From the IMG/VR virus record IMGVR_UViG_3300028654_000001, positions 124,001-188,000 of that record: a DNA stretch of 64,000 nt; one strand, given 5' to 3'. The notes under the pieces were generated by a model that ran no database searches, was not told where the DNA came from, and worked only from the letters and a program-made list of their open reading frames with translations. Source of the stretch: a virus. This document shows, piece after piece, positions 3,105 through 56,177 of the stretch (positions are counted from its first letter, which is position 1; each line of letters opens with the position of its first letter). The position numbers and the translations under genes were made by a program.

Positions 3105-3459
3105 TCATTTTTTTGTATCCAGGTCGTGACATTTCTCTTACCAGAGCCTCGTCGGAGTACCTCAGCTTCTGAGTCCTCCACGAGTCCTCAACTACGCGTT
3201 GACCTGCAGGCCTCCACCGAGCAGGTGTGTCAGGGTCACCATGGATGTCTTCAACCTCTGGAGGGATCAGGCACTTGGTGAAGAGCCAGTCCAAACAGAA
3301 CTCACATACACTGAACTTGTACTTAGTACAATCATCAAGGGCACCCGCTCCGTTCCCAGGTGTCGAGTGAAAGCTCCCTTGGACCTCAGCGTCGACAAGT
3401 CCTACTCGTGGAGTGTTCGGTTCTAGTTGTAATGAGTGTCCACATACATTACAGGTCAC
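3105..3459 (-). CDS. Small zinc-ribbon protein reading on into the next gene
   Basis: A GTG start at 3459 overlaps the end of the preceding gene by 11 bases. The product has CNVCG near the N-terminus and CEFCLDW near residue 52, a Cys4 pattern seen in small phage-type zinc proteins, followed by a GDPDTPARWRPAGQRVVEDS segment. As sequenced there is no stop: the frame continues to 2743. If the run of seven A (3108-3114) had six, translation would end in Y-K-K-stop at 3105, giving a normal 117-residue protein separated from the tagged gene. Confidence 0.6.
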
Positions 3460-3826
3460 TTAGTAGCCTTTCAAATCGGGTTGGTCGAGAACCTCTATAA
3501 GTCTCAGGACTCTCGTTTAGATAGGTATCGAGAATATCCAGAGCTAGATCACTCCAGTACTTCCTAGAGTTCAACTTCCTCATGGTCGGATCAGGGTTGG
3601 CCCTGTTGAACTTCACTCCAGTACTCTTGCACCCCCAGATACCAGTGTAGGTGACAATATTCGGGTCAGATTTCATATTGCGAAGATAGGCGACAAACCA
3701 AACTCTCTGAGGGTTTCGACCTAAGTCTACTACGATAGTCACCTTGTACAGCTTGGAGGCCTCAGAATCTCTGACGATAATATCCCGAACTTGTTGAATT
3801 CGTTGGTCTAGAACTTCAAGAGGCAT
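3449..3826 (-). CDS. C-terminally tagged hypothetical protein
   Basis: A 125-residue protein (ATG at 3826; GTG at 3829 possible) starts inside the stop region of the upstream gene, with GACGAG nearby as a ribosome site. The body looks alpha/beta with no recognised motif. It ends in SRPTRFERLLSDL, the recurrent C-terminal tag. The neighbouring gene 3816-4298 ends in the same tag although the bodies are unrelated. Confidence 0.85.
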   Translation of the reverse strand: MPLEVLDQRIQQVRDIIVRDSEASKLYKVTIVVDLGRNPQRVWFVAYLRNMKSDPNIVTYTGIWGCKSTGVKFNRANPDPTMRKLNSRKYWSDLALDILDTYLNESPETYRGSRPTRFERLLSDL

Positions 3827-4298
3827 CACTCTCGTCCTTGATGATCCGCTCGAATCGCGTGGGCCTGGACTCTACAGGTGGACTACCCGTAGCTCTAACT
3901 AAGTGAGCATGACGTAGATCCATATATAGATAGCTTGTTGGTCCACAGTTATCGCAATAACAAGGACCTATGGGTATAATGTAGTTCTCTGCACTCAAGG
4001 GAGTCTCAGTGAGGAATCCCATACCCATAAATGGTTGCAAGTCAGGTGACTCGCTAATCTCGTTCATCATGGTGGTAGACTCCGATTGGATACGCTCGAA
4101 GTCTTCATCAGTATACACTCCCGGATCAGTGGTATCTAATACGTTGGTGGTTACTTGGAAAGGTCCGCAGCGAGTAGTAACCTCCACACGACCCTCTTGA
4201 ACCGTTGAGACTCTTGTAGCCAATTGATTACAGATGCAGCAACGAACGGCGTACTTCTCAAGGAGTTCCTTGGTGGTGAGGATCATCAAGTCAATCAT
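3816..4298 (-). CDS. Cys-rich, C-terminally tagged protein
   Basis: The start ATG at 4298 overlaps the stop of the upstream gene; TTG at 4322 is an alternative. CCIC near the N-terminus and CYCDNC in the C-terminal third suggest a bound zinc. It ends in ESRPTRFERIIKDESDAS. The gene at 5254-5760 is a paralogue: both share a C-x2-C followed by ATR, a Cys-Asp motif before a Tyr-rich stretch, an LVR or MVRRAT stretch, and the tag. Function unknown. Confidence 0.85.
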   Translation of the reverse strand: MIDLMILTTKELLEKYAVRCCICNQLATRVSTVQEGRVEVTTRCGPFQVTTNVLDTTDPGVYTDEDFERIQSESTTMMNEISESPDLQPFMGMGFLTETPLSAENYIIPIGPCYCDNCGPTSYLYMDLRHAHLVRATGSPPVESRPTRFERIIKDESDAS

Positions 4299-4824
4299 CC
4301 GGATATTGGTAGTAGCCGACAATGTTGATCAACTTTTCAATGAACTTGTAGGCACCAACAATAACGTCATCACTTTGGCTCACACTCTCAGGGCCACTTA
4401 TCTGATGGTCATCGGTGAAAGTGGTGATCACCTTCTCAAGGGATCTGAGTTGAGCCAGGGTAAGAGACTTTCGCACTCGAGGAACATTAACCCCGAAGTC
4501 CATGGGTTCTAGATCAGAGTTAACAATCGGAATCCCGAGCTCACGAGCTCGTTTGACCTCCCTCTTGACCCCCGATGAGGATTCCCAGCCCGGGACAAGC
4601 ACTAGGAGGTCACAGGTCTCTAGTAGGTCCAGAGCTGCCTCCAACCAGAACTCGTAGTCCTGAGTGTCAGCAAAGGGGCTCCAGAACACGTTTGGACAGA
4701 CCGGTACCCAGCCCGCCTTAAGTACGTCGGAGATCACCAGTCGAGCCTTGGAGATGTTCTCCTCAATCTCATCAGCAGAGCCACTATAAGCACCGGAGAC
4801 GAAAGCACGTCCTTTTGTCTTCAT
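4291..4824 (-). CDS. DUF4406 / nucleoside 2-deoxyribosyltransferase-like protein
   Basis: The 177-residue product begins with a strand and Gly loop (AFVSGAYSGSADEIEENI), then WLEAALDLLETCDLLVLVPG and WESSSGVKREVKRARELGIP, the conserved signature of the DUF4406 and nucleoside deoxyribosyltransferase-like fold. Such proteins bind or process nucleotides; the actual substrate is unknown. A C-terminal extension of about 60 residues is unassigned. The start ATG at 4824 follows a GGTGAT site. It heads the run of genes leading to 2743. Confidence 0.8.
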   Translation of the reverse strand: MKTKGRAFVSGAYSGSADEIEENISKARLVISDVLKAGWVPVCPNVFWSPFADTQDYEFWLEAALDLLETCDLLVLVPGWESSSGVKREVKRARELGIPIVNSDLEPMDFGVNVPRVRKSLTLAQLRSLEKVITTFTDDHQISGPESVSQSDDVIVGAYKFIEKLINIVGYYQYPDD

Positions 4825-4970
4825 AGATCACCGAGCTCCAATACTCATACATTCAGTCACTGAGACGTGTTCTATGGGCCAAAAGAGAATGACGGTAAGA
4901 GTAGCTCTATCACTCGCATTGTCAACTCCTGAGACGTAGGGGTTCGACTAGCTTAGCAGGGTACCCTACC
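4825..4970. other. Short intergenic region with possible 15-codon leader ORF
   Basis: On the minus strand an AGGAG site precedes an ATG that opens a 15-codon frame (MRVIELLLPSFSFGP). It may be a leader peptide or chance. No terminator or promoter of the recurrent type is seen. Confidence 0.25.
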
Positions 4971-5261
4971 TCAAGAAGCCTTGGCCCCTTCGAAGGGCTT
5001 CATCTCCTGGCACTTGGTAGCGATCGGGGGCAGGTTCGGAAGCTGAGTCTGACATGCTTGATAGAGAGTGTACGCAAGATTAGTGAGTTGAGCTAACGCA
5101 ATGACTTGCCCTTCACTCTCGGTTTTTCTGGATTGCCCTTTGATTAAACTTATGAGGTGTAGATAGTAGTTGATCGCATCATCCCCTCTGATGAAGACCC
5201 CACGCCAATCATCACCAAACCTCATGCCACCGGTCTCTGGTCGTTCCTGTTCATCATTCAT
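4971..5261 (-). CDS. Conserved small phage-type protein (FIRGDDA motif)
   Basis: The start ATG at 5261 overlaps the stop of 5254-5760 and has GAGG nine bases upstream. The 96-residue product contains RFGDDWRGVFIRGDDAINYY followed by two helices. This GVFIRGD pattern is one I associate with short hypothetical proteins of phages and host genomes; no function is known. Confidence 0.8.
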   Translation of the reverse strand: MNDEQERPETGGMRFGDDWRGVFIRGDDAINYYLHLISLIKGQSRKTESEGQVIALAQLTNLAYTLYQACQTQLPNLPPIATKCQEMKPFEGAKAS

Positions 5262-5760
5262 TTTCATCATCCTCGAGTATGCGGTCAAAACGAGTAGGCC
5301 TGACCTGCTCGGTAGCAGAGAGTCCAACGTTGGTAGCCCTGCGAACCATAGGGGCAATCTCAAGCTCTTGGTACTGTAGTGCCTCGTAGACCCCAGTGTG
5401 GGTATCACAGAAGAAGGGACCTTGATCGAAGGACCAGGATTGAACCTCAGCCCCAAAACCCAAGTTTGGGATCTCCTCACCTATGGCGGCCAGCTCACGC
5501 TGAATCCAACTTACAGTACGTCTACCAATATCCTCCATAGTCAAGTGATCACTTCTGAAAATCTCTGAGGAGGTCATTCGCTGACGGCTTAGTGCGGCGG
5601 TCGGTGTCCAAGCAAACTTGGACAGCTCACCCATCTTGATTCGTAAAATCTGGATGTCGGGAGCGAGGTCTCGATACCTCCGAGTAGCCATGGCTCCGCA
5701 AACACTGCAATGAGGAGCTATATCAACGAGTAGGTTGTAGAGTGCAAAGGTGTCAGGCAT
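5254..5760 (-). CDS. Cys-containing, C-terminally tagged protein
   Basis: This 168-residue paralogue of 3816-4298 has HCSVCGAMATRRY near the N-terminus, FFCDTHTG in the last third and ends in VRPTRFDRILEDDENE. A metal-binding fold is likely. The middle region differs strongly from its paralogue while the tag is conserved, so the tag is under separate constraint. Confidence 0.85.
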   Translation of the reverse strand: MPDTFALYNLLVDIAPHCSVCGAMATRRYRDLAPDIQILRIKMGELSKFAWTPTAALSRQRMTSSEIFRSDHLTMEDIGRRTVSWIQRELAAIGEEIPNLGFGAEVQSWSFDQGPFFCDTHTGVYEALQYQELEIAPMVRRATNVGLSATEQVRPTRFDRILEDDENE

Positions 5761-6642: not shown

Positions 6643-7161
6643 TCACTCATCACTAGGGCCGTACAACCCCTCAATAACCTTCTGGACGTGTATTCCATTC
6701 TCAGTCCTAGGAATGAAGAGTACGATCCGTAACCTATTGAATTTGTATAGAGTATACTGCTCGAGAGTGGTGTCAGCCTTTACAATGTCAGCCTTTGGGT
6801 CAAGGTTCTCCAGGTGATTCACCCGGTCTATGTGGTAGAGTGCCTTGTTTAGGTCAATCACGCTTGCAAATTTGATGATTGTACCCTCGAAGTTACATCG
6901 AACTGGCAACCCAGTAGACGATCCCTTGTAGCACCCAAATAGTTCAGGACTTGTTGGGTAGAATCTCCATTGAGATTCGTGACTCCAAGATTCGAATGCC
7001 CAAGGAGTACCTTCCTGACAGTTGGTAGTTATCCCATTGCTTTGGAGGGTAGTGCAGATGTCCTTAGGTGTGACTTCTATAGTATTAGAGTACCAGCTAA
7101 ATCCTAGGTTGGATAGGCCAATCAGGACGACTGCTAGTAGACTGAGTGCTTTGGTTGCCAT
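6643..7161 (-). CDS. Secreted or membrane-anchored hypothetical protein
   Basis: The start ATG at 7161 is set by the promoter element seven bases upstream. Residues 1-22 (MATKALSLLAVVLIGLSNLG) form a signal peptide or membrane anchor. Four Cys residues in the outer part (CTT, CQE, CYKG, CNF) may form disulphides, consistent with an exported domain. Function unknown. Confidence 0.75.
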   Translation of the reverse strand: MATKALSLLAVVLIGLSNLGFSWYSNTIEVTPKDICTTLQSNGITTNCQEGTPWAFESWSHESQWRFYPTSPELFGCYKGSSTGLPVRCNFEGTIIKFASVIDLNKALYHIDRVNHLENLDPKADIVKADTTLEQYTLYKFNRLRIVLFIPRTENGIHVQKVIEGLYGPSDE

Positions 7162-7168
7162 GTCACTC

Positions 7169-7198
7169 AATACTACATATCGGGGGTTAGGATCTCAC
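7169..7198 (-). promoter_or_regulatory. Fixed-spacing promoter element
   Basis: GAGATC and TAGTATT are separated by 15 bases, 7 bases before the ATG at 7161. Confidence 0.7.
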
Positions 7199-7211
7199 TA
7201 CTTATTCTGGA

Positions 7212-7505
7212 TTAGGCCTCCCCGACAACCGACTTCCCACCAAAGATGTTGTCCCAGTTCTCCCGGTAGGCTCGACTGTTGACCAGGGGAGGTCTACCGA
7301 CGGGCTCCTCTGATATGATCCTGTGAAGAGGACCTTCAACCCTCTCAAGGTGGAGCTTGGCATCAAAAATACCACCAGGGACTGACTCCAAGTCCCGATA
7401 GAGCCTACCTGACTGGACCCCGTTCTCGTCAATATGAAGGGCCTTGCACCCACCCTCAATTTCTGGGCCTAAGACAACATAACCCTTGTCATCGTCATCT
7501 TTCAT
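7212..7505 (-). CDS. Hypothetical acidic-start protein
   Basis: The ATG at 7505 (MKDDDDKG) is chosen over the upstream frame start at 7538. The 97-residue product has a beta-rich first half and no recognised motif. It is about 14 bases upstream of the promoter element for 7161 and does not share that transcript's start. Confidence 0.65.
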   Translation of the reverse strand: MKDDDDKGYVVLGPEIEGGCKALHIDENGVQSGRLYRDLESVPGGIFDAKLHLERVEGPLHRIISEEPVGRPPLVNSRAYRENWDNIFGGKSVVGEA

Positions 7506-7552
7506 TGGGATCCGCCACAACAACCCTACGTGAAACAAACAGAGTTGTCAAA

Positions 7553-7876
7553 TTACTTGACGAGTCGAAGTTTACGAGGTTGCTTGACTTCATTTACCCT
7601 CATCCTTCTCGGTCCCTCGTAGTCAGTGCAAACCTCGGAAGACTTCAGATCCCGTCTGACCCAAAGTTGATCAGCGGTGTTGACAGTAATCGATAAGACA
7701 TCGGTTTTATGAAACTTCCCATAGAAGCACCTCACTATGTGGTCCCTGAAGCACTTGCTAACCCAATGGAGGGCAAATTGCTCCTCATCTGGCGACTTAT
7801 CGATGCTCTTCTTAAGATCTTCACCTATGTTGACTCTATAGGGGTGGGGTCGCCACTTGCAGTCGTTGCAATTCAT
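7553..7876 (-). CDS. Small Cys-containing hypothetical protein
   Basis: The 107-residue product begins MNCNDCKWRPHPYRVNIGED and has two further Cys (CFRDHIVRC), so a metal site is possible. It is in the leftward group running from the radical SAM gene at 9430. Confidence 0.65.
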   Translation of the reverse strand: MNCNDCKWRPHPYRVNIGEDLKKSIDKSPDEEQFALHWVSKCFRDHIVRCFYGKFHKTDVLSITVNTADQLWVRRDLKSSEVCTDYEGPRRMRVNEVKQPRKLRLVK

Positions 7877-8127: not shown

Positions 8128-8496
8128 TCACATCCCTAGGTTCTCCAACTCGAGTAAGATCTGGTCAGGCTCATTGGTTAACCTAGTGGCAGTTATACGC
8201 CTACGACTAAGACTCTGAAAGTAACTCCATAACGGACCTGAAGGTGTTTTACTTGCATCCGATCGTTTGATCATGAACAACATACCACAAGAGCACTTGA
8301 ACCATATCTCTTGTTCCACTACGGTGATTTCTCCGTGGCCTTGAAAACTATGGTTAGCAGCTGCACGCAATAAAATAGGAATAGTGGTGAAGGTTGGTAT
8401 CCCAAGATTAGCCTCAGGCACCTTGGGGGATGCTGGTGGGAGTCGACCAGGACGGATCACCATCCACATAGATTCGATGTCATCGTCCTGAGTCAC
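8128..8496 (-). CDS. N-terminally tagged protein with Cys pair
   Basis: The product starts with the recurrent tag (DDDIESMWMVIRPGRLPP) from a GTG start that overlaps the stop of the 54-residue membrane peptide upstream as GTGA. The body includes WFKCSCGMLF, a possible metal or disulphide site. The last residues (LLELENLGM) lack the C-terminal tag. Function unknown. Confidence 0.8.
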   Translation of the reverse strand: MTQDDDIESMWMVIRPGRLPPASPKVPEANLGIPTFTTIPILLRAAANHSFQGHGEITVVEQEIWFKCSCGMLFMIKRSDASKTPSGPLWSYFQSLSRRRITATRLTNEPDQILLELENLGM

Positions 8497-8657
8497 TTAC
8501 CCCCCAAGTACTCGAGTACGCAGCATCTGTAGTGGTGCGGATCATACCCAGCTTGAAAGCTGAACTGCCTATGACAGTAAGTGTCCTGTACAAGATAGAT
8601 CATTAGGCCTATACCTATGCCTAGTATCAAGAATACAAAAGGGTAGTACTTTATCAT
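8493..8657 (-). CDS. 54-residue membrane peptide next to radical SAM gene
   Basis: Read by eye because it is short. The ATG overlaps the radical SAM stop as ATGA and its own stop overlaps the next GTG start. Residues 4-23 (YYPFVFLILGIGIGLMIYLV) form a membrane helix; the tail has Cys, several Tyr/His and a final CC pair. The double coupling argues that it is translated. It could be an accessory membrane anchor or, speculatively, a peptide substrate of the radical SAM enzyme. Confidence 0.7.
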   Translation of the reverse strand: MIKYYPFVFLILGIGIGLMIYLVQDTYCHRQFSFQAGYDPHHYRCCVLEYLGGK

Positions 8658-9430
8658 GGATCAACCCCAATCGCGTGCTTGTGCATCGGAGACAGGTTAT
8701 CTTCCTGCTTGCATCGGTTGCAAGATCCCATTGTGAGAACAGCTTTGGTCAACTCCTCGTTAGAGCTATCGACGGTTCCAATCGGGTAACAGAGTCGACT
8801 CTCACCCGCGACAACTACCCCCTCATGAGTCACTGACGGAGTACAGAACCCTGCTAGCCCAATACATGCTCTAGCCCTCAAGAGCTTGATTGCCATAGGC
8901 ATCGACTTGTACGAACGAGTGAGGGATCTGAGGTTGAAGCTACTGGGGGCCGAGCGAGGACTTAATCCCTTGGGGTCAAACGTGGGTCTTGAGGCTCGAC
9001 CGATGGTGGACAAGACTTGAAGTTTGTCCACGTAGGTTATCTTCGGGTGCTCTAACTTCAGAGGCTTGCGTGGGTAGTACCGATCGTCATTAGTGACTTG
9101 AAAAAGGACATGCTTCCAATCATCTCGAAGGAGAGCATCCCTGAGTTCCTTGTTCTCTAGCCAGAGCCCATGAGTCAGAATACTAAGGATCCAACCTCTC
9201 CTAACTACCTGTGAAGCCATCTCGACGAGAAGTGGGTTATCCGTGCACTCCCCTCCTGATAGCATCATCATCACCGGGATCCCAGCCTTGATAACCTCAC
9301 ACTCTGCTCGTTCGGTGAAATCGAGTGCTCGCATGAACGTGTTCATATCCATGTGCTCTCCGGAAGGGAGAGCATCCTCGAGACAGTGGGTGCAGCCCAT
9401 CGAGCAGGAATTTGTTATTTTGATGATCAT
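8654..9430 (-). CDS. Radical SAM enzyme with extra C-terminal cysteines
   Basis: C9, C13 and C16 form the CxxxCxxC motif that holds the 4Fe-4S cluster; GGE at about 59-61 is the usual SAM-binding motif. The C-terminal region has at least five more Cys (ACIGLAGFC, LCYP, SCNRC), resembling a SPASM or Twitch auxiliary cluster region. Length (258 residues) suits a compact maturase. Reaction and substrate are unknown. It overlaps the membrane peptide gene downstream, and together with the tagged gene they form a coupled set. Confidence 0.88.
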   Translation of the reverse strand: MIIKITNSCSMGCTHCLEDALPSGEHMDMNTFMRALDFTERAECEVIKAGIPVMMMLSGGECTDNPLLVEMASQVVRRGWILSILTHGLWLENKELRDALLRDDWKHVLFQVTNDDRYYPRKPLKLEHPKITYVDKLQVLSTIGRASRPTFDPKGLSPRSAPSSFNLRSLTRSYKSMPMAIKLLRARACIGLAGFCTPSVTHEGVVVAGESRLCYPIGTVDSSNEELTKAVLTMGSCNRCKQEDNLSPMHKHAIGVDP

Positions 9431-9473
9431 TTAGTGGTTTACAGGATAACCCCACCCGTTTCAACAAGCAAGA

Positions 9474-9821
9474 TCATTCGGTTTTAGTGGTTGAACGCCT
9501 CTTAACCATATCGATTCTGGCCTGAAGATTGTCAACAAGGGACTTCAACTCTGGGAAGGGGTCAGCTGTCTGCTCTTCTTCGGGAACCGTGGCCATGAAT
9601 CGATTGTACTCTATCACGTGGCCTTCAGTAATGTAGCCTATATCCCCCCAACTCTTGCTCGTTTCCTCCAAGTAGTCACATGCCAATTTGACCGGATGGA
9701 TCATGCTTGCAGCTATCTTGTTGCGCCCCCTTGAAGTCTTTATATTTGACTTAAGAATCTCTAGTGTACGTGGGTTTTTGTACCTAGATAGAAAGGCCTG
9801 AATCGCGACTTCTTGATTCAT
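9474..9821 (-). CDS. Hypothetical helical protein
   Basis: A 115-residue, mainly helical, charged product (MNQEVAIQAFLSRYKNPRTL start). A possible coiled segment lies at the C-terminus. No motif recognised. It is the next gene downstream of the tagged gene 9846-10370. Confidence 0.7.
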   Translation of the reverse strand: MNQEVAIQAFLSRYKNPRTLEILKSNIKTSRGRNKIAASMIHPVKLACDYLEETSKSWGDIGYITEGHVIEYNRFMATVPEEEQTADPFPELKSLVDNLQARIDMVKRRSTTKTE

Positions 9822-9845: not shown

Positions 9846-10370
9846 TTAGTCGTTCTCGAGTATCCGTTCAAAGCGAGTCGGCCTTGGTCCAGTATACGAT
9901 TCAGAAAGCCTATTCGCCGGCATGTTATCAATCAACCGTCTCAAGTACCCCATCATAAACCCTACGGGTACGGTCATCTCGGATCCATTGAATTGGGGAG
10001 TGAGTTCCATGAGCGAGTAGCTTAGTGAAAGTACCCAAGTCAGGATTAGGTCTCCGGTGGTCGGGTGTTCAACATAGGTTGGCAAGGTGTGTTGCACCAC
10101 ATAGAGGGTGCCGTCCTGAGCTCCTGGGTTGTTAGACCACAGGACTAGATCTGCTAACAGACTCTGAACTTGATCTGCTATCACAAACCTTCTACCCTCG
10201 AAGGTCAGGCGGGGTAGCCGAAGGATATTCCCAATAGCGATCTCATGAGTAGTGGATACAGTTAGGTTTCGATTGATCCAAAGCACCTCATGGACCGTAG
10301 ATTCACGGGTGAAGTCTGCCACTTCCGAGTTCTGGCCACTGAGCACCCATAAACGGAGATTGACGGGCAC
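9846..10370 (-). CDS. C-terminally tagged hypothetical protein
   Basis: A 174-residue protein starts at GTG 10370 directly after the upstream TGA. It has alternating strands and ends in PRPTRFERILEND, one of the cleanest examples of the C-terminal tag. No catalytic motif visible. Confidence 0.82.
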   Translation of the reverse strand: MPVNLRLWVLSGQNSEVADFTRESTVHEVLWINRNLTVSTTHEIAIGNILRLPRLTFEGRRFVIADQVQSLLADLVLWSNNPGAQDGTLYVVQHTLPTYVEHPTTGDLILTWVLSLSYSLMELTPQFNGSEMTVPVGFMMGYLRRLIDNMPANRLSESYTGPRPTRFERILEND

Positions 10371-15776: not shown

Positions 15777-16228
15777 TGTACCTCAAGTTTCTTACCTCGA
15801 AACCATAGATCATCGACCACTCGTTCTGAGTGCGGGTGCCTGCCAGAGATCAGCTTCAAGTGGTAGTAGAGCTCTTCACCCATGGTAGTGATGTCGACAA
15901 GCTCCCAGACTCGAGGTCCATCCTTCCACCGGGACTTCAGCTCAGGTTCAGGTATCGGTTGGACTTCCTCAACCCCTTGGATGAGAGGGGCCACTACCTT
16001 AAGTCGATGCTCCAGAGTCCTTTGGAGGTCTTGGAACGCTTTGGACTTCAGCTCTTGGTAGAGTTCACTGGCGGTGAAGGCCTCCTCACTCTCAAAGGCC
16101 TCCTCACTCTTGGTGTACCAGTTTGCGAAACCCGTCTCGCCATTCCAGTAAACTGCAACAGCAACCTCTGACTTACCAACGAATTGAGAGAAGGAGACCT
16201 CCTCGAGTCGAAGTTGGCGGAGGTTCAT
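15773..16228 (-). CDS. Hypothetical protein
   Basis: A 151-residue alpha/beta product with repeated Ser-Glu-Glu-Ala-Phe (SEEAFESEEAF). ATGA overlaps join it to both neighbours. Function unknown. Confidence 0.7.
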   Translation of the reverse strand: MNLRQLRLEEVSFSQFVGKSEVAVAVYWNGETGFANWYTKSEEAFESEEAFTASELYQELKSKAFQDLQRTLEHRLKVVAPLIQGVEEVQPIPEPELKSRWKDGPRVWELVDITTMGEELYYHLKLISGRHPHSERVVDDLWFRGKKLEVQ

Positions 16229-16611
16229 GAGGCCACCGCCTTATCTGAAGAATCATACCACTCCTCTTCTTCATCCTCCCATTTGGTGAGTAGATCGTTT
16301 GGATCTTTCATCCAACCCAGTAGCTCAGCAATCTGTTTGAGAGTCTGAGGACCTGACTTGAAGTTCCCTCTGCGTGTGATTCCTTTCGTGAACCACCGGC
16401 CGATGAACTGATCTAGGGAGGATGCATTCTCCACTTCGTACAGAATGAAGTGAGCATAAGATCCATCCTCGAGCCGCCAACTGAGTGCTGACCGGGGAAG
16501 GGGTAACTTTGAGTAGAACTTACTCGCAGCTTCCTCGATAGTCTCGGCCTGTACTTCAACCCATGGGGAAGCACTCGGCTTGATACTGCGACATTTGAAT
16601 ACTTCAGACAT
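16225..16611 (-). CDS. Hypothetical protein
   Basis: A 128-residue alpha/beta product whose stop overlaps the next start as ATGA. The pattern of strand, helix (ETIEEAASKFYSKL) and strand is typical of small phage proteins; no motif recognised. Confidence 0.7.
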   Translation of the reverse strand: MSEVFKCRSIKPSASPWVEVQAETIEEAASKFYSKLPLPRSALSWRLEDGSYAHFILYEVENASSLDQFIGRWFTKGITRRGNFKSGPQTLKQIAELLGWMKDPNDLLTKWEDEEEEWYDSSDKAVAS

Positions 16612-16618
16612 GAGGTTT

Positions 16619-16936
16619 CTATTGAACGACAGCGGGTGCCTTCAAGAACTCGATTTCGATGTTCTCGGTGGGGTCCCCATTGTGAAAGCGAGTGAATGGA
16701 TCTGACAGCCGATTGATATGCCGAGCATTGAGGGAAAAGGTGTACTGACCGTAGAATCCACGACCTACCCGAACCTTGAAGGATACCCGAACCTGATGGC
16801 TGTAGTCGGCGCCTAGCGGCCTGACCTCGGTTACCTCAAGAGTGGTACCCTTGGTGATCCCAAAGGCCTTGCACCCCTTGCGGACGTAGACAATGCAACC
16901 AGGGATAATCGTAGGGGAGGTGGTTGAAGTGGTCAT
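16619..16936 (-). CDS. Hypothetical beta-rich protein
   Basis: The ATG at 16936 is fixed by the promoter element four bases upstream; TTG 16942 would lie within the promoter. The 105-residue product looks like a small beta barrel (GCIVYVRKGCKAFGITKGTT). First gene of the operon 16.9-15.1 kb. Confidence 0.75.
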   Translation of the reverse strand: MTTSTTSPTIIPGCIVYVRKGCKAFGITKGTTLEVTEVRPLGADYSHQVRVSFKVRVGRGFYGQYTFSLNARHINRLSDPFTRFHNGDPTENIEIEFLKAPAVVQ

Positions 16937-25178: not shown

Positions 25179-25717
25179 TTTCCTGCTCCTGCGGCCTGGA
25201 GGAGGACCAAAACTTCCATATGGTTCCATCTGCTCCCTGGGTCGAGTATCGAAACATAATCATGTTCCGTGACACTGATCACCGGGGGTCTCTTGTTGAG
25301 CATGTACTTGACGAGTTCGGTACATCCATTCTCACAAGCTTGGATCATGGCTAGAGGGTAGTCAGCATCGGATCGATGTTCTAGGTCCTGGAACATCTGG
25401 TACTGACCGTCTCGAGCAGCCATCTCGAGTGGAGAAAGAGGAGTACCTTTCCCTCCACCAAATACTGGAACAAAACCTCCCATGCGAGAGACCAAGAGAA
25501 TCTCTTCAGGGGTCCTGATAGCAGGGGCATCCTTGAGACGGGTGACGAGGATCGGGAACCCACGGCTGATAGCCCAGGCTAAGAAGATCCCTTCAGCGTT
25601 CGGGTGCTTCAAAGCCCCCTGAACAGCTTTCTTCGTACCCTTTTTCTCCTTTTCCACGTAGGAGGCGACGATCTCTTGCCAGGTAAGGTCCCTCCAGTCC
25701 TTAGGGCCAGGGGTCAT
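25175..25717 (-). CDS. Ankyrin-repeat-like protein
   Basis: In the second half TPLSPLEMAARDGQYQMFQD and YPLAMIQACENGCTELVKYM fit the helix-turn-helix pattern of ankyrin repeats, and a last weaker unit ends in LLQAAGAG. The N-terminal 100 residues are less regular. Likely a protein-interaction module; partner unknown. ATGA overlap with the tagged gene upstream. Confidence 0.6.
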   Translation of the reverse strand: MTPGPKDWRDLTWQEIVASYVEKEKKGTKKAVQGALKHPNAEGIFLAWAISRGFPILVTRLKDAPAIRTPEEILLVSRMGGFVPVFGGGKGTPLSPLEMAARDGQYQMFQDLEHRSDADYPLAMIQACENGCTELVKYMLNKRPPVISVTEHDYVSILDPGSRWNHMEVLVLLQAAGAGK

Positions 25718-45405: not shown

Positions 45406-45864
45406 TTACCACTTGACATCTTCAAGTGCTGCTTCTGCCCAATACCCTCCTGGGCCTGCCCAAATAACCTTAGGTGGGTCTGGGCGGTGAAAAATAGAAC
45501 TACCCATAGCTTTCCAAGCTGTAGATCCTTCGTTAACGTGGTGAGCTATCACCTTGTAAGTCTTTCCAGCTGGTTTCTCAGGTTTACCAACCACCTTAAC
45601 GAGGGTTCCCTTAGGGATAAGGATCTCTTTCCCCTTAAGATTAGGGATAGGCTCTCCAACTCCATACTTAGGTGGTTTTACACCACGACGTCGATCTTCA
45701 TCCCCTACTAACCAACCTTCATTATAGTCAGAATCAACCCACTCAGATAACTTTGGGTCTGGATCTTTTCCTTGAAGGCCATCCATATACCCCTCGTGAG
45801 TCCAATTACTAGTTCTAGATACTACCCTTCGAACTACTCTGGTTATGATTCCTAGATCGTTCAT
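45406..45864 (-). CDS. Protein with detachable N-terminal leader, paralogue A
   Basis: The 152-residue product begins MNDLGIITRVVRRVVSRT, then GYMDGLQGKDPDPKLSEWVD and ends in GPGGYWAEAALEDVKW. The paralogue 59738-60172 has the same body (GYMDAFYGKDQDP to GAGGYWAEADLNDI) but starts without the leader. Upstream TAGTATCGAGT-ATG resembles the promoter's -10 end. Confidence 0.82.
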   Translation of the reverse strand: MNDLGIITRVVRRVVSRTSNWTHEGYMDGLQGKDPDPKLSEWVDSDYNEGWLVGDEDRRRGVKPPKYGVGEPIPNLKGKEILIPKGTLVKVVGKPEKPAGKTYKVIAHHVNEGSTAWKAMGSSIFHRPDPPKVIWAGPGGYWAEAALEDVKW

Positions 45865-45964
45865 ACTCGATACTAGTTCATAAGTAAGTTATACCCCTGA
45901 TTGTTTCATTGGAAAGGTACTACCATTCAGGGGTACTCCAAACCGAGACGCTCTGAAACCAGAG

Positions 45965-46687
45965 TTAGATCTTAGTATCCATCCAAACACAAGTCTTCCC
46001 AGGTACCATCCCCTGCTTGGTGAAGAACTGGACTGCTCCACTTGTAGGGCATGCCCAAGCATAGAGGTAGGTCACACCCTGCTTCTTGAGTTCGTCAACA
46101 ACGCCTCGATACAATCTGACTGCTAGACTCGAACCCCGCCACTTCTCAGCTACAGCAATGTACACAAGACAGGCTTGAGTTGGATCATCACAGTGATCAG
46201 GATCTCCAGTTTGACCCAAGCAGAAGCCTTGAATCTCACCTTCCTTATCACACGCCAAGAAAACAACAGCACAGGGATTCTCAAGTGTAACCCTGAGTTC
46301 ATCTTCGCTCATGAATTCCACTTGGGAGCTTACTTTTATCTCAGGGATAGTAATCCCAAAAGAGTGGATACTCTCAGCATCTTTCGCGGTTGCTCGATGA
46401 ATTGTAAGGTCGAAGTCGTCTTCTGATCTGATCCTAGTATTCTGAGCTAACCTGTCTTTTACTGTGCCCTTAGACCGATTCTTGTTATACTCGAGGATAT
46501 CCTCGTAGACCTCTCGTGGCATCATTAGGTGCACGACACCATTATCATCCGTGAGTGCTACAGCACCGTCAGGATCGTTCTCATCCATGAGTCGGGCCTG
46601 AATGCACTTACCCGAAAAGGCAAACGGGATGCGGTCGAGTTCCTCAAAGGCAGCCTTGACGGCGGCTAGGTCAATATCATCAGCCAT
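45965..46687 (-). CDS. GNAT N-acetyltransferase
   Basis: In a 240-residue protein the C-terminal 150 residues are a GNAT domain: HRATAKDAESIHSFG start, VVFLACDKEGEIQGFCLGQT strand pair, and EKWRGSSLAVRLYRGVVDEL with the acetyl-CoA loop and helix. An N-terminal 90-residue part is unassigned. The substrate is unknown. The start has a degenerate promoter end (TAGCTTA, GCTC, ATG). Confidence 0.82.
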   Translation of the reverse strand: MADDIDLAAVKAAFEELDRIPFAFSGKCIQARLMDENDPDGAVALTDDNGVVHLMMPREVYEDILEYNKNRSKGTVKDRLAQNTRIRSEDDFDLTIHRATAKDAESIHSFGITIPEIKVSSQVEFMSEDELRVTLENPCAVVFLACDKEGEIQGFCLGQTGDPDHCDDPTQACLVYIAVAEKWRGSSLAVRLYRGVVDELKKQGVTYLYAWACPTSGAVQFFTKQGMVPGKTCVWMDTKI

Positions 46688-46709: not shown

Positions 46710-47192
46710 TCAGATCACTTCTTCTCGGTGAAACCTATCTGGGGGCCATTGCTTGGACTTGGTGTGGTCCTCCTCGCACTCCTCAAGAAGTAGATCCCTT
46801 ATGCGTGAATCAGCAAAGTACAGACTAGTATCCCAGGGTGGTGTTCCTTCCAGGTAATTAGTCCACTGAGATTTCGAGACTGGATCGAACTTTCCCTCAA
46901 TCCAATACTCCACCTCGTCCCCTTCGAAGCTGGTATGCTCCACCACCTGTCCAGTCCAGATATAGAGCCCGTCAGAGGGGATCTGAACCTCCATATCTTC
47001 TTCGAAGTGGTCCTGCATGTACCCATCTTCATAAAGGAAGTCGAGCCCTGGTCCGATATACAACAAAACCTTGGGCATCCCAAATACGATCACAACAAGG
47101 GCCTTCTCAGGAGGCAAATCTCTCCTACCCTTGTAAACCAAACCTCTCACCGAGATGAAAGGCTCTGTTTCATCAGAGGGGTAGAAACTCAA
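46710..47192 (-). CDS. Protein with variant C-terminal tag
   Basis: A 160-residue alpha/beta protein that ends PPDRFHREEVI, close to PPTRFEREDVI at 56177. The tag's Arg-Phe-x-Arg-Glu core is kept with Thr to Asp and Glu to His changes. Function unknown. Confidence 0.72.
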   Translation of the reverse strand: MSFYPSDETEPFISVRGLVYKGRRDLPPEKALVVIVFGMPKVLLYIGPGLDFLYEDGYMQDHFEEDMEVQIPSDGLYIWTGQVVEHTSFEGDEVEYWIEGKFDPVSKSQWTNYLEGTPPWDTSLYFADSRIRDLLLEECEEDHTKSKQWPPDRFHREEVI

Positions 47193-47631
47193 TGGGTACG
47201 CTCAAATCCCTTCCGTGAGTAGTGAGCTCCACGCCCATGAAACCCATCTCGTGGATGGTCGCCAAAGGCAGCAATTTCTTCAAGTTGTCAAGGCTTTTTT
47301 GGATTGAGGTCCTAGTACTCTCTGTGAGTCCTTCAACCAAAGGGCTGATAATAGAGAACTCCATTATTGGAAAGGGGTGGTCATTGTCAGCTTCAACCCG
47401 AATCTTGTTCAAGACACCAATCTGATCACCCCCAACGAATACCCTAGCCTTGGGGACACATCGAGCAGGCTTACCCGAGGGTGTGTCAGTCAGTAAGCTT
47501 CCCTGTTGAACAAATACCAACAGGTCATCTTCGGATACCTCTACTACCTGTTGAAACACTTTTGATAACTGAGCTTCTGTACGTCGTACAACGAACACTT
47601 TATCAAACTCTCCGACTTCGATTGTTGGCAT
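47173..47631 (-). CDS. Hypothetical protein
   Basis: A 152-residue product (VGEFDKVFVVRRTEAQLSKV) with a mixed fold. AAGGAG precedes ATG 47631. Overlaps the next gene by 20 bases. No tag. Confidence 0.72.
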   Translation of the reverse strand: MPTIEVGEFDKVFVVRRTEAQLSKVFQQVVEVSEDDLLVFVQQGSLLTDTPSGKPARCVPKARVFVGGDQIGVLNKIRVEADNDHPFPIMEFSIISPLVEGLTESTRTSIQKSLDNLKKLLPLATIHEMGFMGVELTTHGRDLSVPIEFLPL

Positions 47632-47953: not shown

Positions 47954-48393
47954 TAGATCACTGGCTCCCTCTCGAATCGAGTTGGGTGGGTGATGTCAAG
48001 AGACTTCAAATTGACTGGAGATACGAGCTTGTATCTCGGGTTGAACTCTGGAAGGTTCATCTCCACGTGGTGTCCACGGAAGTAGATGGTAACGTGCCAT
48101 ATCAAATGAGAGTGGAGGTCATCACCCAGGATGATCTGAACATTATCCTCGAAGGGGAATTCCAATACCCAGGAAGTGGCCATCCGATTCCTTTTTGGAA
48201 TTAGACGGTACAGCCCTGGCTCTAACCGATCTACTCGGCGTCCCTCAATATACTCTTCCTTAATGTGGCACTTGACAACTGCGTAGTTTGGGACATCAAT
48301 GACCAGAGCCTCTTGGTACTTAAGAGGGTTGAACTCTAGCTTGAACTTCATGCATGTGATGTCCTTGCCAGTCCGGTTGAACTTGATGATCAT
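47953..48393 (-). CDS. C-terminally tagged hypothetical protein
   Basis: ATG 48393 preferred to TTG 48399. A 146-residue beta-rich protein ending THPTRFEREPVI. The same ending closes 51298-51660 on the other strand although the bodies are unrelated. Confidence 0.82.
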   Translation of the reverse strand: MIIKFNRTGKDITCMKFKLEFNPLKYQEALVIDVPNYAVVKCHIKEEYIEGRRVDRLEPGLYRLIPKRNRMATSWVLEFPFEDNVQIILGDDLHSHLIWHVTIYFRGHHVEMNLPEFNPRYKLVSPVNLKSLDITHPTRFEREPVI

Positions 48394-48496: not shown

Positions 48497-48847
48497 TCAG
48501 TCAAGCCATCCTCGCTTTCGGCGGTAGGCCTTCTGAACGCTTCCGTATACCACCGTAAAGGTCCACTCATATGAAGAGAAAATACCCCCTGTGATGAACA
48601 GCCACCAGACCCAGCGGTGCAGCTTGTACCACCTGGGTCTGAACACAACACAGGTCTCTCCCTCGTAGTCAGATGCAGAAGCTCCGTCGACTGGTTCCTC
48701 GAGCAAGTACAAGGCCTCTTCAGAGATAGAGTAACCTTCGATCTTGGTCGGATTGATGTGGTCACATACACCGCCCTTGGGTGGCTCCTTCCCTGGTTTA
48801 CGCGGCGGGCGGAGACCTTCCCAGTAGGACTCGATGTCATCAGTCAT
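48497..48847 (-). CDS. N-terminally tagged membrane-region protein
   Basis: ATG 48847 overlaps the upstream stop as TGATG. The product begins MTDDIESYWEGLRPPRKPGK. Near residue 80, LHRWVWWLFITGGIFSSYEW is a hydrophobic stretch that could span a membrane. Function unknown. Confidence 0.8.
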   Translation of the reverse strand: MTDDIESYWEGLRPPRKPGKEPPKGGVCDHINPTKIEGYSISEEALYLLEEPVDGASASDYEGETCVVFRPRWYKLHRWVWWLFITGGIFSSYEWTFTVVYGSVQKAYRRKRGWLD

Positions 48848-49182
48848 CAAAGCACATCCGGCCACATACGGGAAATTTCGTCAAGACGATTGAGCACCTC
48901 CTTGTTTTCATGAGGTTTATCGAAGTCATAATCAGTCAAGATTCCCTGAAAGTGCTCTCTGATTGTCCCGAAGCTGACTTCAACTCCAAAAGTGTTAAAT
49001 ACCGTAGAGATGTACTCCCGGATCTTCAAGTCAGCCGCAAAGGTGGGTACCAAAACCCTTCGGCTAATCCTAATCAAAGCCTTCAGCAAGACCATGGAAT
49101 TGATAGACTTTTCGACTATCAACTGAGGACGAACCACCTCCCAATAGGACTCGATGCTATCAGTCCTTGATCCTGTAGCCAT
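48847..49182 (-). CDS. N-terminally tagged helical protein
   Basis: A 111-residue product beginning with a short prefix and TDSIESYWEVVRPQL. The body (KALIRISRRVLVPTFAADLK and REYISTVFNTFGVEV) is helical. Its first codons overlap the micro-ORF with the same tag. Confidence 0.8.
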   Translation of the reverse strand: MATGSRTDSIESYWEVVRPQLIVEKSINSMVLLKALIRISRRVLVPTFAADLKIREYISTVFNTFGVEVSFGTIREHFQGILTDYDFDKPHENKEVLNRLDEISRMWPDVL

Positions 49183-49259: not shown

Positions 49260-50735
49260 CTAGGCTGGATCCTCTAAAGAGAAGTCATCCTCAGAAGGCT
49301 CCTGGTTCCTACCCTCTATTGAATCCCTCGGAGGCTGGTAGGCACGTCTCTCGGTTGGGTAGAGCTCCTCTGGGCGAGGGAACGTGCCTGGGGCACTCAT
49401 AGGTAGGAACTCCACTCGGAAGTTAAGTAGTACTCTCCTACGCCAGTCATCCTCCCCATAGTGGTTGAAGGTTCTCCTTCCTAACTCATCAAGAGAGGTC
49501 TGTAGATTAGTGAGAACCCGCCTGTTGAGGGGTTCTGCCATGTTATCGGATGTCTCAATGATTCCATTGAGCAGTAGGGCAACTCGCCTGAGGTTGATAC
49601 GGGTGTCATACTCCCGCTCATCATCGGAACGTCTCTCAGGTAACTCTAGGTCTGCTGTATTATGGCCTAGAAACATGGTACCAGCAGCAGCCATTCGTCT
49701 CTCATGTTGGGGTACCTCGTTCCTATTGATCTCCGACAATCTTGTTAGAGCATGACCATCATTCTCGCTTGTGAAGTATCTGCGAATCTCATCCTGAGTT
49801 GGTAGGTGTCCTACCATCCCCATGTACTGCTCAGTGTACGCTAGGATCCTACGATCTGCAGCAGTACTGTCATGGGCATGAGTCCCCTGTCGATGAACAC
49901 TCCCTCGACGAATATGGTAGGTCACCTCAAAGGTGTTGAGGGTATCTTGCCACCAATTAGTACGCATGTTGTGGGCAGCACCTTGAGCTTCAACCCAAGT
50001 GAACAACTCGGTGATGATCGAATCAATGTGCTCATCGTCCCCAACCCTGTCGACGAGTTCTTGAAGGTTGCTCAGTAGTAGGGCCAATCTTCGCATATCA
50101 AGAATGGATTGGCTTTGGGACTCGCCCACTTCCTGAGGGGCTGCTACTTCTTGGGGTAAACTTGGAGACTGGATATCATCATCGAGACCCCCTACACGAA
50201 CAATCAAGTCTAGGATTCGTTCCTGAACCCTCATGCTCGAGATGAAGTGCCCACGCATAATGGATATCGGTGGGTATGAGCGGTTCTCCTTGCAGTACTC
50301 TAGAACGTAGTCACTGATCTGCTTATCTATCTCAGAAATGTTTTGAGTAGGAGTGTTTTGGTGCAGCCTTCTCAAGTACGCCCAGAGCTCACCCCCAGTC
50401 AGTGTTCGACTGTACAACTGACCCTGCACCACTCGGTCTAGCAGACTAACACACCCAGGTTTTGACCACTCTTCGAAGGTTATACGAATATCCTCGTAGT
50501 CAGGGTACTCATCCGTATTCCGGTGTTGCCGATTCAAATGAGTAATGATCTGGTTAGCATTCTCAGTCTGGGAAATGTACTCAGGGGGCGGATTTGCAAA
50601 CACTCGAGTCAGAATGTTGAGTATCTGTTGCCCACTAGGGTTCCATTGGTCCCGAGCCTCTTGGGGTACCCCTGGGGAGGATCGCAGTCCCTGTCGATGA
50701 TCCCAGTAGGATTCAACTTCATTATCGTCTGGCAT
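49260..50735 (-). CDS. Long N-terminally tagged helical protein
   Basis: ATG 50735 has GAGG six bases upstream. The 491-residue product starts MPDDNEVESYWDHRQGLR and is helical and polar throughout, with three comparable segments (for example ISDYVLEYCKENRSYPPISI and LAYTEQYMGMVGHLPTQDEI) suggesting internal repeats. Largest tagged protein here. No enzyme motif. Confidence 0.78.
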   Translation of the reverse strand: MPDDNEVESYWDHRQGLRSSPGVPQEARDQWNPSGQQILNILTRVFANPPPEYISQTENANQIITHLNRQHRNTDEYPDYEDIRITFEEWSKPGCVSLLDRVVQGQLYSRTLTGGELWAYLRRLHQNTPTQNISEIDKQISDYVLEYCKENRSYPPISIMRGHFISSMRVQERILDLIVRVGGLDDDIQSPSLPQEVAAPQEVGESQSQSILDMRRLALLLSNLQELVDRVGDDEHIDSIITELFTWVEAQGAAHNMRTNWWQDTLNTFEVTYHIRRGSVHRQGTHAHDSTAADRRILAYTEQYMGMVGHLPTQDEIRRYFTSENDGHALTRLSEINRNEVPQHERRMAAAGTMFLGHNTADLELPERRSDDEREYDTRINLRRVALLLNGIIETSDNMAEPLNRRVLTNLQTSLDELGRRTFNHYGEDDWRRRVLLNFRVEFLPMSAPGTFPRPEELYPTERRAYQPPRDSIEGRNQEPSEDDFSLEDPA

Positions 50736-51213
50736 GATCATCCTCAGAATTAGACAAGAGATCACTCATCTCTTGAAAGTAACTCAAGCGTGGATCTTCA
50801 GGCCCAATGTTGAGGTCTTGGACTCTACTATCAATCACGTCTATCAACCTGGTGAAGTTGTAGCGGATCCCAGCTGAGTTCAAGAGATTACGTAATCGAA
50901 CCGTTGTATATACAAGCTCTCGAAAGAGAGACCCGTTTGATCTCTCTGTCCCGCTTAAGTGGTGCGAGTAGGGTGGGTCTGTAACGACGGAAGTGAAGGT
51001 TACGTTTGATTCTTCAACTTCAACAGGGGAGTCATCACCATAATCAATGGTGTAACGAGTCACGTAGGGGGTTGACTCCTCATCGGACTCAACTGGGTCT
51101 TCTAAAGCAACCACGTCGACAATAGGCACATTGGTTAGGGTACTCAGATCCCGCTGGGGTCGAAGTCCTTCCCAAAAGGACTCGATGTCATCAGTGTCAG
51201 TTGAGGTACCCAT
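50722..51213 (-). CDS. N-terminally tagged protein
   Basis: A 163-residue product beginning MGTSTDTDDIESFWEGLRPQ. Beta-rich middle, helical end. Its start lies inside the end of the small ORF 51144-51278. Confidence 0.78.
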   Translation of the reverse strand: MGTSTDTDDIESFWEGLRPQRDLSTLTNVPIVDVVALEDPVESDEESTPYVTRYTIDYGDDSPVEVEESNVTFTSVVTDPPYSHHLSGTERSNGSLFRELVYTTVRLRNLLNSAGIRYNFTRLIDVIDSRVQDLNIGPEDPRLSYFQEMSDLLSNSEDDHARR

Positions 51214-51297: not shown

Positions 51298-51660
51298 ATG
51301 CCAACCGAGGAAAAGAATCTTGAGCTGACACTCTTAGGAATCAAGGTGGCTCGAAGGCCATTTGATCAGTCACGACCCGGGCTCTATTGGTACACAACCC
51401 GTGGCGGCTACAACATGAATATTTTCAAGAATCTGGCTAATATTGACAACCAGAAACCCTATGAGTGGTATTGCAGTACCGTTGGTTGCTCCTTCACAGC
51501 TAGTGGTAAAGAGTCATCGTTAGATGAAGCTATTAAAGAAGCTCATGTGCGTCTTGCTAACCACATTCTAGAGAAGTCCAATGTGGAGCAGACTGCCATA
51601 AACTTTCTCCCGAATAGTACCTCACGACCAACTCGATTTGAACGAGAACCGGTACTGTAG
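51298..51660 (+). CDS. C-terminally tagged hypothetical protein
   Basis: A 120-residue rightward gene with CSTVGCSFTASGKESSLDEA and an end in SRPTRFEREPVL. It is one of two tagged genes on the plus strand with this ending, so the tag is not tied to one operon or strand. Confidence 0.82.
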   Translation: MPTEEKNLELTLLGIKVARRPFDQSRPGLYWYTTRGGYNMNIFKNLANIDNQKPYEWYCSTVGCSFTASGKESSLDEAIKEAHVRLANHILEKSNVEQTAINFLPNSTSRPTRFEREPVL

Positions 51661-54936: not shown

Positions 54937-54941
54937 GATGC

Positions 54942-54972: not shown

Positions 54973-55153
54973 TATTTTGTTGAAATAGTTTGTGGCCCCA
55001 ACCTACCTACAAGGGTTGAATTATACCCAGTTTTCTCAACATTGGGTACCCAAAATCGAACAAGTGGCCTACTAGGGTTATTCCAATCTTGTGGTGAAAA
55101 TTGAAATAAGGATCTATCAGGAAAGGTGTTGCTACAACGCCCTGAAATAAGAC

Positions 55154-55465
55154 CTACCGACCTGGTGGCCTGAGTCTTTTTGGACCCAAGGTACCAAGAA
55201 ACCCCTTGAGGTCTTCTCGCTCTGCTTCGGTTACCCTGAGTTGACCCGAACTGACTAGATTCGCCGCTCCAGGATCTAACCCTAGTCGTTTGTGGGTCCA
55301 CTCAGCCCAATCACGCTGCCTCTTCGTCAGCTTCTGGAACTTTCCTGCAAGGAGATCCCCCAACATCCGGGAGAAAGCTGCCTCTTCTTCCCCCTCAAGC
55401 TTTTCGCTCTCAACAAGGTCCTCCAACAGTTTCAAGTCCGGAAGGGTGACTTTGAACTCTAACAT
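55154..55465 (-). CDS. Small helical hypothetical protein
   Basis: ATG 55465 (MLEFKVTLPDLKLLEDLVES). The 103-residue product has SRMLGDLLAGKFQKLTKRQR with WAEWTHKRLGLD, a pattern seen in short phage hypotheticals of this size. Function unknown. Confidence 0.72.
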   Translation of the reverse strand: MLEFKVTLPDLKLLEDLVESEKLEGEEEAAFSRMLGDLLAGKFQKLTKRQRDWAEWTHKRLGLDPGAANLVSSGQLRVTEAEREDLKGFLGTLGPKRLRPPGR

Positions 55466-55555
55466 CTGAAAGTAATACACCCCAACTCAAGTCTGGAATT
55501 CAATACTTAGTAGATTTTGGCAGGTTGTCCAACCATCCCCGGTGTACTGAGAGTC

Positions 55556-55756
55556 ATGCCATCAGATACCAAGAAAAACAAGCACGAGCATACGTTCAAA
55601 GATGGAGCAACCTTGAATTTAACTGCTAGTTCCAAGGGTCTGAAGATTGGTTGGCAGGAAGTTGGTAAGAGTAAGCATCCTGCAGTTACCTTGACTTGGA
55701 AGACAGTGAATCGTCTGAGTCGTCACCGCATGAAGCCAAAGACCGTTGTGGGGTGA
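55556..55756 (+). CDS. Small basic protein
   Basis: ATG 55556 preferred to 55517. The 66-residue product is Lys-rich with beta strands (HTFKDGATLNLTASSKGLKI). Followed directly by a tagged gene. Confidence 0.65.
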   Translation: MPSDTKKNKHEHTFKDGATLNLTASSKGLKIGWQEVGKSKHPAVTLTWKTVNRLSRHRMKPKTVVG

Positions 55757-55757
55757 T

Positions 55758-56177
55758 ATGTCCGATATCATCTGGATGCCCGTCACCAGAATTCTATCAA
55801 CAGACCTTATGGTGTTGGGGGTAAAGTATCTCTTCGATTGGGATCGAAGGGTCTGGGTAGAGCATCAAGATGGTTGCTATGATGGTATACAATGGCACAC
55901 CATGTTCCTCTGTCGCGAAGTCGACGGTAAGAGTCAGTTCTGGCTTGAGGTTGTCCCAGCTACCGCCAAGTTACTGAGTGACTGTGGTCTTCGTGATGAG
56001 CATCTACTCAGAGCTATTGAACCAATACCACCTTGGCCGTCCAAGGTGGTGATGTTCTACATGGAGACCCAAGTAGCCGCTGCTCTGGTTGAATACCAAC
56101 CCGTGAAGAGTGTCTCGCCCTCTTGGTGGTTCAAGGATCTCCCTCCAACTCGGTTCGAGCGCGAAGATGTTATCTAG
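55758..56177 (+). CDS. C-terminally tagged hypothetical protein
   Basis: ATG 55758 lies one base past the upstream stop, with GGGGTGAT as ribosome site. The 139-residue beta-rich product ends LPPTRFEREDVI. The leftward gene that follows overlaps its end by four bases. Confidence 0.8.
   Translation: MSDIIWMPVTRILSTDLMVLGVKYLFDWDRRVWVEHQDGCYDGIQWHTMFLCREVDGKSQFWLEVVPATAKLLSDCGLRDEHLLRAIEPIPPWPSKVVMFYMETQVAAALVEYQPVKSVSPSWWFKDLPPTRFEREDVI

Follow-up and report, generated by a model that had tools for sequence, protein, structure and literature searches.

Peroxisomes sort unrelated proteins by means of two address tags, the C-terminal PTS1 and the N-terminal PTS2. In phages T4 and P1, terminal peptides of IPIII and DarB bring cargo into the head; the first 30 residues of DarB are enough to package a reporter, and the P1 study found no consensus among the Dar proteins (PMC9024508). 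The capsid targeting sequence (CTS) of T4 is cleaved (PMC5694885). Encapsulin cargo peptides of about 10 residues, located at the C- or N-terminus and common to unrelated cargo, are read by an HK97-fold shell (PMC7355545). Nuclear import in the Chimalliviridae (PicA) is reported to use a recognition surface and no terminal signal (PMC11087766). Here we describe a recurrent peptide tag with the core T-R-F-E-R, mostly at the extreme C-terminus, on many proteins of a megaphage. The analysis started from a stretch of 64,000 nucleotides (hereafter the window), which corresponds to bases 124001–188000 of a virus record of 512,571 b (G000).

The tag resembles the T4 CTS, borne by internal proteins and Alt, and the P1 DarB peptide in being a short terminal peptide on otherwise unrelated accessory proteins of one phage, several of which in T4 and P1 act in counter-defence (PMC9024508); this feature is found in G000 and in a second megaphage, G018. 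The T4 and P1 peptides are N-terminal and occur on a handful of proteins, whereas the present tag is mostly C-terminal or internal, occurs on 50–68 proteins and has one clear core; a companion tag alone is N-terminal. The encapsulin peptides likewise form a shared terminal signal on unrelated cargo, but they have another sequence and few cargos per shell. Chimalliviridae import also gathers many phage proteins selectively in one place, through a surface signal rather than a terminal tag, and PTS1 and PTS2 match the C- and N-terminal positions on unrelated proteins but depend on eukaryotic import machinery. By analogy, the tag may work like capsid-targeting and cargo-loading peptides, yet it is not classed with them, as its position differs and its destination is putative. 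Searches of the open-access PubMed Central (PMC) literature gave, among the entries viewed, no description of such a tag, and the parts seen of two papers surveying jumbo and huge phages (PMC7824862, PMC7162821) contain no mention of one.

The peptide in the genome and in related phages

We counted C-terminal matches in G000 where the motif lay within 20 aa of the end of an open reading frame (ORF) of at least 60 aa (n = 1742), the record being covered in overlapping stretches; as these ORFs are mechanical calls, exact tag totals may move by a few. The tag ended 57 of the 1742 ORFs, and 7 matches were internal. The pattern [TSDN]RF[EDH][RKH] gave 58 matches within 20 aa of a C-terminus and 9 elsewhere; when the proteins were written backwards, a single C-terminal match was left. 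A DNA-level pattern matched 45 times, and its reversed form 4 times. In an unsupervised count, TRF.R was the top-ranking 4-residue C-terminal pattern (45 of 735 genes, 3 internal). A position-specific scoring matrix at 14 bits matched 67 times in G000 ORFs, compared with 3 times in reversed proteins and twice in LR745208, an uncultured 485-kb phage. The matrix added TRLER and TRFQR variants as well as linker-internal copies; 11 ORFs with matches of ≥10 bits outside the core set were taken in, which gave an accepted total of 68. ORF 243801, which holds a second tag, was counted once, and the doubtful matches 133297, 168866, 176346, 223751, 229246, 405239, 430739 and 468284 were left out. A suspected hybrid of the C- and N-terminal tags in 468284 was dropped, being located in an apparently folded region. 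The sequence-only reading had listed eight tagged proteins, all of which were recovered with the positions, strands and C-termini that it gave (Table 1); the genome-wide count confirms that the phenomenon is larger than first reported. The tagged genes are unevenly distributed, 67 of the 68 lying below 290 kb (508 called genes) and one among the 233 genes above.

The tag is seated on a flexible linker enriched in P and E. Its end takes one of two forms, an acidic, helix-like stretch (R-I-L-x-D-D) and [DE]-x-V-[IL]-COOH; PTRFEREDVI and RPTRFERILEDD are examples of the tag. These two sub-types, already distinguished in the sequence-only reading, were both found, together with intermediate endings (ILDDDIL, ILWDEVI). 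The tag is not strictly C-terminal, as some conserved copies lie within internal linkers: a contig designated G003 keeps the linker-internal tag of a protein resembling kinases (Pkinase match at E 9e-5, which falls short of the curated cut-off), GPRTRFDHILEDDDD compared with GPKTRFDHILEDDDG, and also keeps a second such tag, RTRFERILDPEPEDPNID.

The 57 tagged bodies of G000 fell into 44 BLAST clusters, and some bodies exist both tagged and untagged (45748 and 171173; 170710 and 95346; numbers are first coordinates in the record). The earlier claim that the bodies are unrelated stands in the window, apart from the paralogues at 3816 and 5254, but does not extend to the genome, where families exist; a CxxC..C pattern is present in 23 of the 68 tagged proteins, 19 of them being one small four-Cys type by eye. 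The number of clusters, the 7 internal against 57 terminal copies and the untagged paralogues rule out that the tag is an internal part of one domain. Conservation was compared in 14 ortholog pairs between G000 and G002, a related 71-kb contig from IMG/VR that was located via the tag pattern. The tag was identical at 91 of 112 positions (81%), compared with 127 of 306 (42%) in the 20-residue preceding linker and 1084 of 2453 (44%) in the body, and the sub-type was unchanged in 14 of 14 pairs. Moreover, 38 distinct 15-mers encode the 46 TRFER copies of G000. Since the codons differ among copies, the peptide is what is conserved, and a DNA-level element such as a recombination site is ruled out.

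G000 encodes a terminase large subunit and is a tailed phage. Its HK97-type major capsid protein (MCP; 403571-404440) is 38.5% identical to the homologue of Bacillus phage G and 48% to that of Tunturiibacter phage Tunturi_5, and 406716-408386(-) is a homologue of the Tunturi_5 head maturation protease. By terminase, the nearest GenBank record is LR745208 (46%). The MCP matched 538 relatives in IMG/VR, of which the best 80 were kept (contigs L122–L201) and 28 of these were checked by the DNA pattern. In the best 80 of the 538 the MCP was 91–99% identical, and the genome GC content of those read was 0.50–0.65; the capsid protein is very strongly conserved among otherwise different megaphages.

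With a loose DNA pattern, some match occurred in 20 of the 28 records, and G018 and G007 alone held up, with 25 and 11 matches, respectively, against 0 in each control. Fifty ORFs of G018 (435 kb, covered except for 3 kb, GC 0.65, MCP 94%) are tagged, and their bodies form 47 clusters; the reversed proteins gave 1 such ORF. The endings are of the form P-[ST]-R-F-[DE]-R-x-E-[VP]-[ILV] or shorter. G007 (286 kb, GC 0.57, MCP 98%) has 7 tagged ORFs and 3 TRLER variants, against 1 in reversed proteins; at least 1 of the 7 strict matches, 153495(+), looks like chance. The tag is retained in distant homologues: G000 17533 corresponds to G018 7651/7995/8409, G000 502547 to G018 334088 and G007 243360, and G000 10102 to G007 265963. 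The other phages with the same capsid had at most one tagged ORF (1 in the 529-kb G025, MCP 93%; 1 in G016, 231 kb covered; 0 in LR745208 and Tunturi_5), and phage G showed nothing over its control by the DNA pattern. G016 was rejected as a carrier: it had 7 DNA matches against 1 in the control, but in the part covered the C-terminal ORFs numbered 1 in the forward and 1 in the reversed proteins. A match in G005 was internal and from another phage, and matches in five bacterial or archaeal contigs were estimated to be chance. Searches by tblastn of the tagged proteins 199554 and 232348 against GenBank phages gave no match, and a search for loci related to 220848 returned none. The tag is thus present beyond the window in G000 and in some relatives only.

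The many bodies, a tag that outlasts both linker and body, and its recurrence in other megaphages show a portable linear motif on flexible linkers that is under selection. An address or docking signal, as proposed in the sequence-only reading, is the best interpretation, in view of the unrelated bodies, the flexible linker, the conservation of the tag relative to both, the distant relatives and the untagged paralogues. We consider that the tag is very probably a docking motif.

Destination of the tagged proteins

Profile searches found few known families among the tagged proteins. In G000 these comprise a RecA/UvsX-like ATPase (288766), a tail/head-decoration-like segment (199554) and a Tad2-like domain at E 1.7e-4, below the cut-off. 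In the PHROGs scans, 'major head protein' was the only family with two or more tagged proteins among its matches (2/57 in G000 and 2/50 in G018). We then searched the non-MCP proteins of G000 and G018 with a hidden Markov model of seven MCPs (E ≤ 0.01). Of the 118 tagged proteins, 7 held MCP segments, as did 3 of the 1107 untagged ones (Fisher p 6e-6). A single tagged protein of G018 (42960) holds MCP residues 10–137, and its pieces match two tagged proteins of G000, both with orthologs in G002: 220848-221597(+), with MCP 1–62 (N-arm), and 222714-223754(+), with MCP 245–289 followed by 85–137, a permuted arrangement of C-terminus and spine region. The AlphaFold2 model of 222714 was unusable (mean predicted local distance difference test, pLDDT, 34). 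A single hhalign comparison matched the family 29554/107999/108598 to the E-loop region of the MCP (E 2.7e-6). By eye, the family 101154/102437/103716/112474 resembled the MCP N-arm, but hhalign did not support this.

Other MCP pieces, the A-domain among them, were seen in G000 462580-463089(-) and 16081-16656(-). In the window, the untagged 115-aa ORF 9474-9821(-) matches MCP 8–43 (E 7e-6). A 97-aa ORF of Tunturi_5 (122430-122723) shows the same permuted order as 222714.

As MCP pieces are enriched in the tagged set, the best lead for a destination is, we infer, the head. In the proposed mechanism, the tag (about 8–13 residues) would recruit small, fast-changing accessory proteins to one shared partner, a phage-encoded receptor that would bind the tag in a helical form, for which AlphaFold2 gives weak support. 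The most likely destination would be the assembling head, where the tagged proteins would become part of the capsid or be packed in its interior; they could then reach the next host along with the DNA. G000, G018 and G007 are likely to have the receptor, whereas G025 and LR745208 would lack it or have a different one. Thirty G000 genes have homologues in G018 but none in LR745208, G025 or Tunturi_5, and two of the 30 are tagged. The first candidates for the receptor, untagged and with homologues in G007 as well, are 412766-413269 (head module), 356502-357950, 371961-373385, 428972-429631, 445466-445768, 267388-267675, 286996-287352, 500429-500968 and 495833-497542. A PDZ-domain receptor was discarded, as PDZ_2 (PF13180), the sole PDZ model searched, had no match in the G000 record and had matches in 14 of 14 control genomes.

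Several observations weigh against a route to the head. The untagged G025 and Tunturi_5 each have one protein with an MCP piece, and the Fisher count overstates independence because the MCP-bearing proteins are partly interrelated. In G000, 61 of the 68 tagged proteins have no MCP segment even at E ≤ 1 (4 of 68 have one at E ≤ 0.01). Core virion genes are untagged, given the position of the tagged genes below 290 kb and a head, tail and replication block without the tag. By eye, the tagged 198805, 199554 and 210444 look membrane-anchored, which is odd for capsid cargo, and the MCP is no obvious receptor, being 93% identical in G025, which lacks the tag system. We hold the whole model, a docking peptide leading to the assembling head, as our preferred but tentative reading.

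The alternatives concern in part the N-terminal tag of the sequence-only reading, taken here as DDIESYWEGLRPxR. Among the 741 genes of G000, 68 are C-tagged and 22 N-tagged. As stated earlier, no protein carries both, but the probability of zero overlap by chance is 0.12 and the result is no evidence of exclusion. N-tagged genes lie within two genes of C-tagged ones in 14 of 22 cases (9.05 expected, p 0.027). G000, G001 and G002 carry the N-terminal tag. A search by regular expression found none in G007, G018 and G025 (as covered), and LR745208 had none either. The C-terminal tag may have a receptor of its own, distinct from that of the N-terminal tag, as the sequence-only reading suggested.

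The tag might instead dock accessory proteins to a structure formed during infection, such as a compartment, condensate or cytoplasmic hub, without a virion role, and the two tags would be two address forms. Their opposite termini, their separate carriers and the proximity of their genes fit such a hub, and the internal copies and apparently membrane-anchored carriers are as compatible with it as with a capsid. It leaves the MCP-piece enrichment unexplained, however, and replication proteins, the natural clients, are untagged save the RecA/UvsX-like ATPase. A nucleus-like phage gained no support, as phmmer found no match to phiKZ chimallin (gp54), PhuZ (gp39) or gp55 in single-sequence searches that may miss distant homologues; the known nuclear import reportedly uses a surface and no terminal signal (PMC11087766). 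We regard this alternative as rather unlikely.

The tags could also act as degrons or be recognised by an AAA+ machine of phage or host, for example the phage ClpX, which we consider improbable. An intein-containing ClpX-like protein is encoded in G000, the tags are located at termini, and the tagged ORFs of G018 end in I/L/V/F/M in 40 of 50 cases, compared with 132 of 492 genes. In contrast, 27 of the 57 tags of G000 end non-hydrophobic (30 are hydrophobic), the conserved part is the TRFER core rather than the end, and internal copies are conserved. ClpX homologues are present in G007, G018 and G025; the last has no tag system, which argues against ClpX as the tag reader. The G000 ClpX gene, 277071-279446(-), is interrupted by an intein with Hint and LAGLIDADG domains.

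Pairing of the C- and N-terminal tags with each other through complementary helices, in the manner of the docking peptides of modular synthases, is still less probable. Both tags look like short, charged amphipathic peptides with the acidic end toward the terminus, they never share a protein, and their genes are modestly neighbouring; but G018 and G007 have the C-tag and no N-tag, 68 against 22 promiscuous partners would give no specificity, and the lack of overlap may be chance. Finally, a functionless relic of one expanding family or of 3'-end recombination is scarcely credible: paralogous families exist and tagged genes cluster (26 adjacent pairs against 8.7 expected), but the tag is conserved far beyond linker and body, its codons vary, and the same core recurs in the GC-rich G018 with 47 body clusters for 50 tags.

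Tagged proteins of the window and neighbouring features

Table 1. Tagged proteins and related features of the window (window coordinates unless G000 or G002 is given).
Feature	Coordinates	Strand	Tag and position	Relatives
C-tagged protein, 126 aa	3449..3829	-	SRPTRFERLLSDL, 3452-3490	tagged paralogue G000 107402-107788(+), ending EEVI
C-tagged protein, 168 aa	3816..4322	-	SRPTRFERIIKDESDAS, 3819-3869	Cys-containing family, 5 members, 5/5 tagged
C-tagged protein, 168 aa	5254..5760	-	VRPTRFDRILEDDENE, 5257-5304	family of 3816
C-tagged protein, 174 aa	9846..10370	-	PRPTRFERILEND, 9849-9887	
C-tagged protein, 160 aa	46710..47192	-	PPDRFHREEVI, 46713-46745 (most divergent)	G000 170710; untagged paralogue G000 95346-96230(-)
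C-tagged protein, 148 aa	47953..48399	-	HPTRFEREPVI, 47956-47988	
C-tagged protein, 120 aa	51298..51660	+	RPTRFEREPVL, 51625-51657	tagged ortholog G002 3188-3553
C-tagged protein, 143 aa	55746..56177	+	PPTRFEREDVI, 56142-56174	tagged ortholog G002 7137-7568, last 8 residues of tag identical
Untagged paralogue	47173..47631	-		G000 171173; 37% over 141 aa to tagged G000 45748-46257(-)
N-terminal tag	48497..48865	-	DDIESYWEGLRPPR	
N-terminal tag	8128-8496	-		
N-terminal tag	25714-26562	-		
N-terminal tag	26578-27045	-		
N-terminal tag	48847-49182	-		
N-terminal tag	50722-51213	-		
N-terminal tag	58161-58751	+		
N-terminal tag, degenerate	49260-50765	-		
N-terminal tag, internal position	56788-57579	-		

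The end at 4322 is the longest start of the 3816 ORF, 4298 in the sequence-only reading being an alternative start. In the AlphaFold2 model of this protein (mean pLDDT 55, low confidence), the tag forms a helix beyond a low-confidence linker. A ninth match in the window was not counted, as it belongs to a 56-aa ORF (9297-9467) overlapping ORF 8654-9430.

Other recurrent N-termini were observed. In G000, IL.RVAARY..A occurs for example in 414860-415906(-), 418512-418904(-) and 460734-461924(-), two of which adjoin the terminase. In LR745208, TLRSKLIRLAHxNPxLRPxLLPLL occurs in 398171-398575(-) and 389893-390948(-), one of them between the MCP and the protease.

A promoter-like CGGTGTA lies about 10 nt 5' of the start codon, GGTGTA being present in 46 of 301 upstream regions of G000 (6.5 expected), and a second promoter-like motif consists of a TTGAGA-like element and CGTARTACT. 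GGTGTA is found upstream of 6/17 C-tagged, 4/9 N-tagged and 40/261 other genes, and of 5/55 structural-block and 5/35 replication-block genes. CGTARTAC lies upstream of no tagged gene, though of 10 genes in all. We set aside the tags as marks of an expression class, as these counts were not decisive. A CRISPR-like array at 282-2509 of the window has about 30 near-identical repeats (CTGGGGATCC..CATTGAAAC) spaced 71–76 nt apart, and its spacers are unique; another array, at G000 113694-116300, has a related repeat.

Significance for megaphages

Most megaphage genes are without a known role, and there is little way to tell where their products act. A tag on 50–68 proteins of one phage would give them a testable common fate and offers a short peptide for finding the receptor. 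These phages may represent, with some reservation, a lineage of megaphages with its own peptide address code: a C-terminal or linker tag, joined in some members by an N-terminal tag, would direct the products of about a tenth of the genes (68 + 22 of 741) to a structure made by the phage, the assembling head being the most likely one, and the tagged set includes fragments of the capsid protein. The tag would move from body to body, so that new accessory proteins would be enlisted by acquiring it. If the destination is a compartment formed during infection, a bacterial virus would be using a simple peptide as an address, unlike the reported phage-nucleus import. If the tagged proteins are loaded into the head, the tag would explain the packing of many effectors by very large phages and provide a C-terminal delivery signal for engineered phages.

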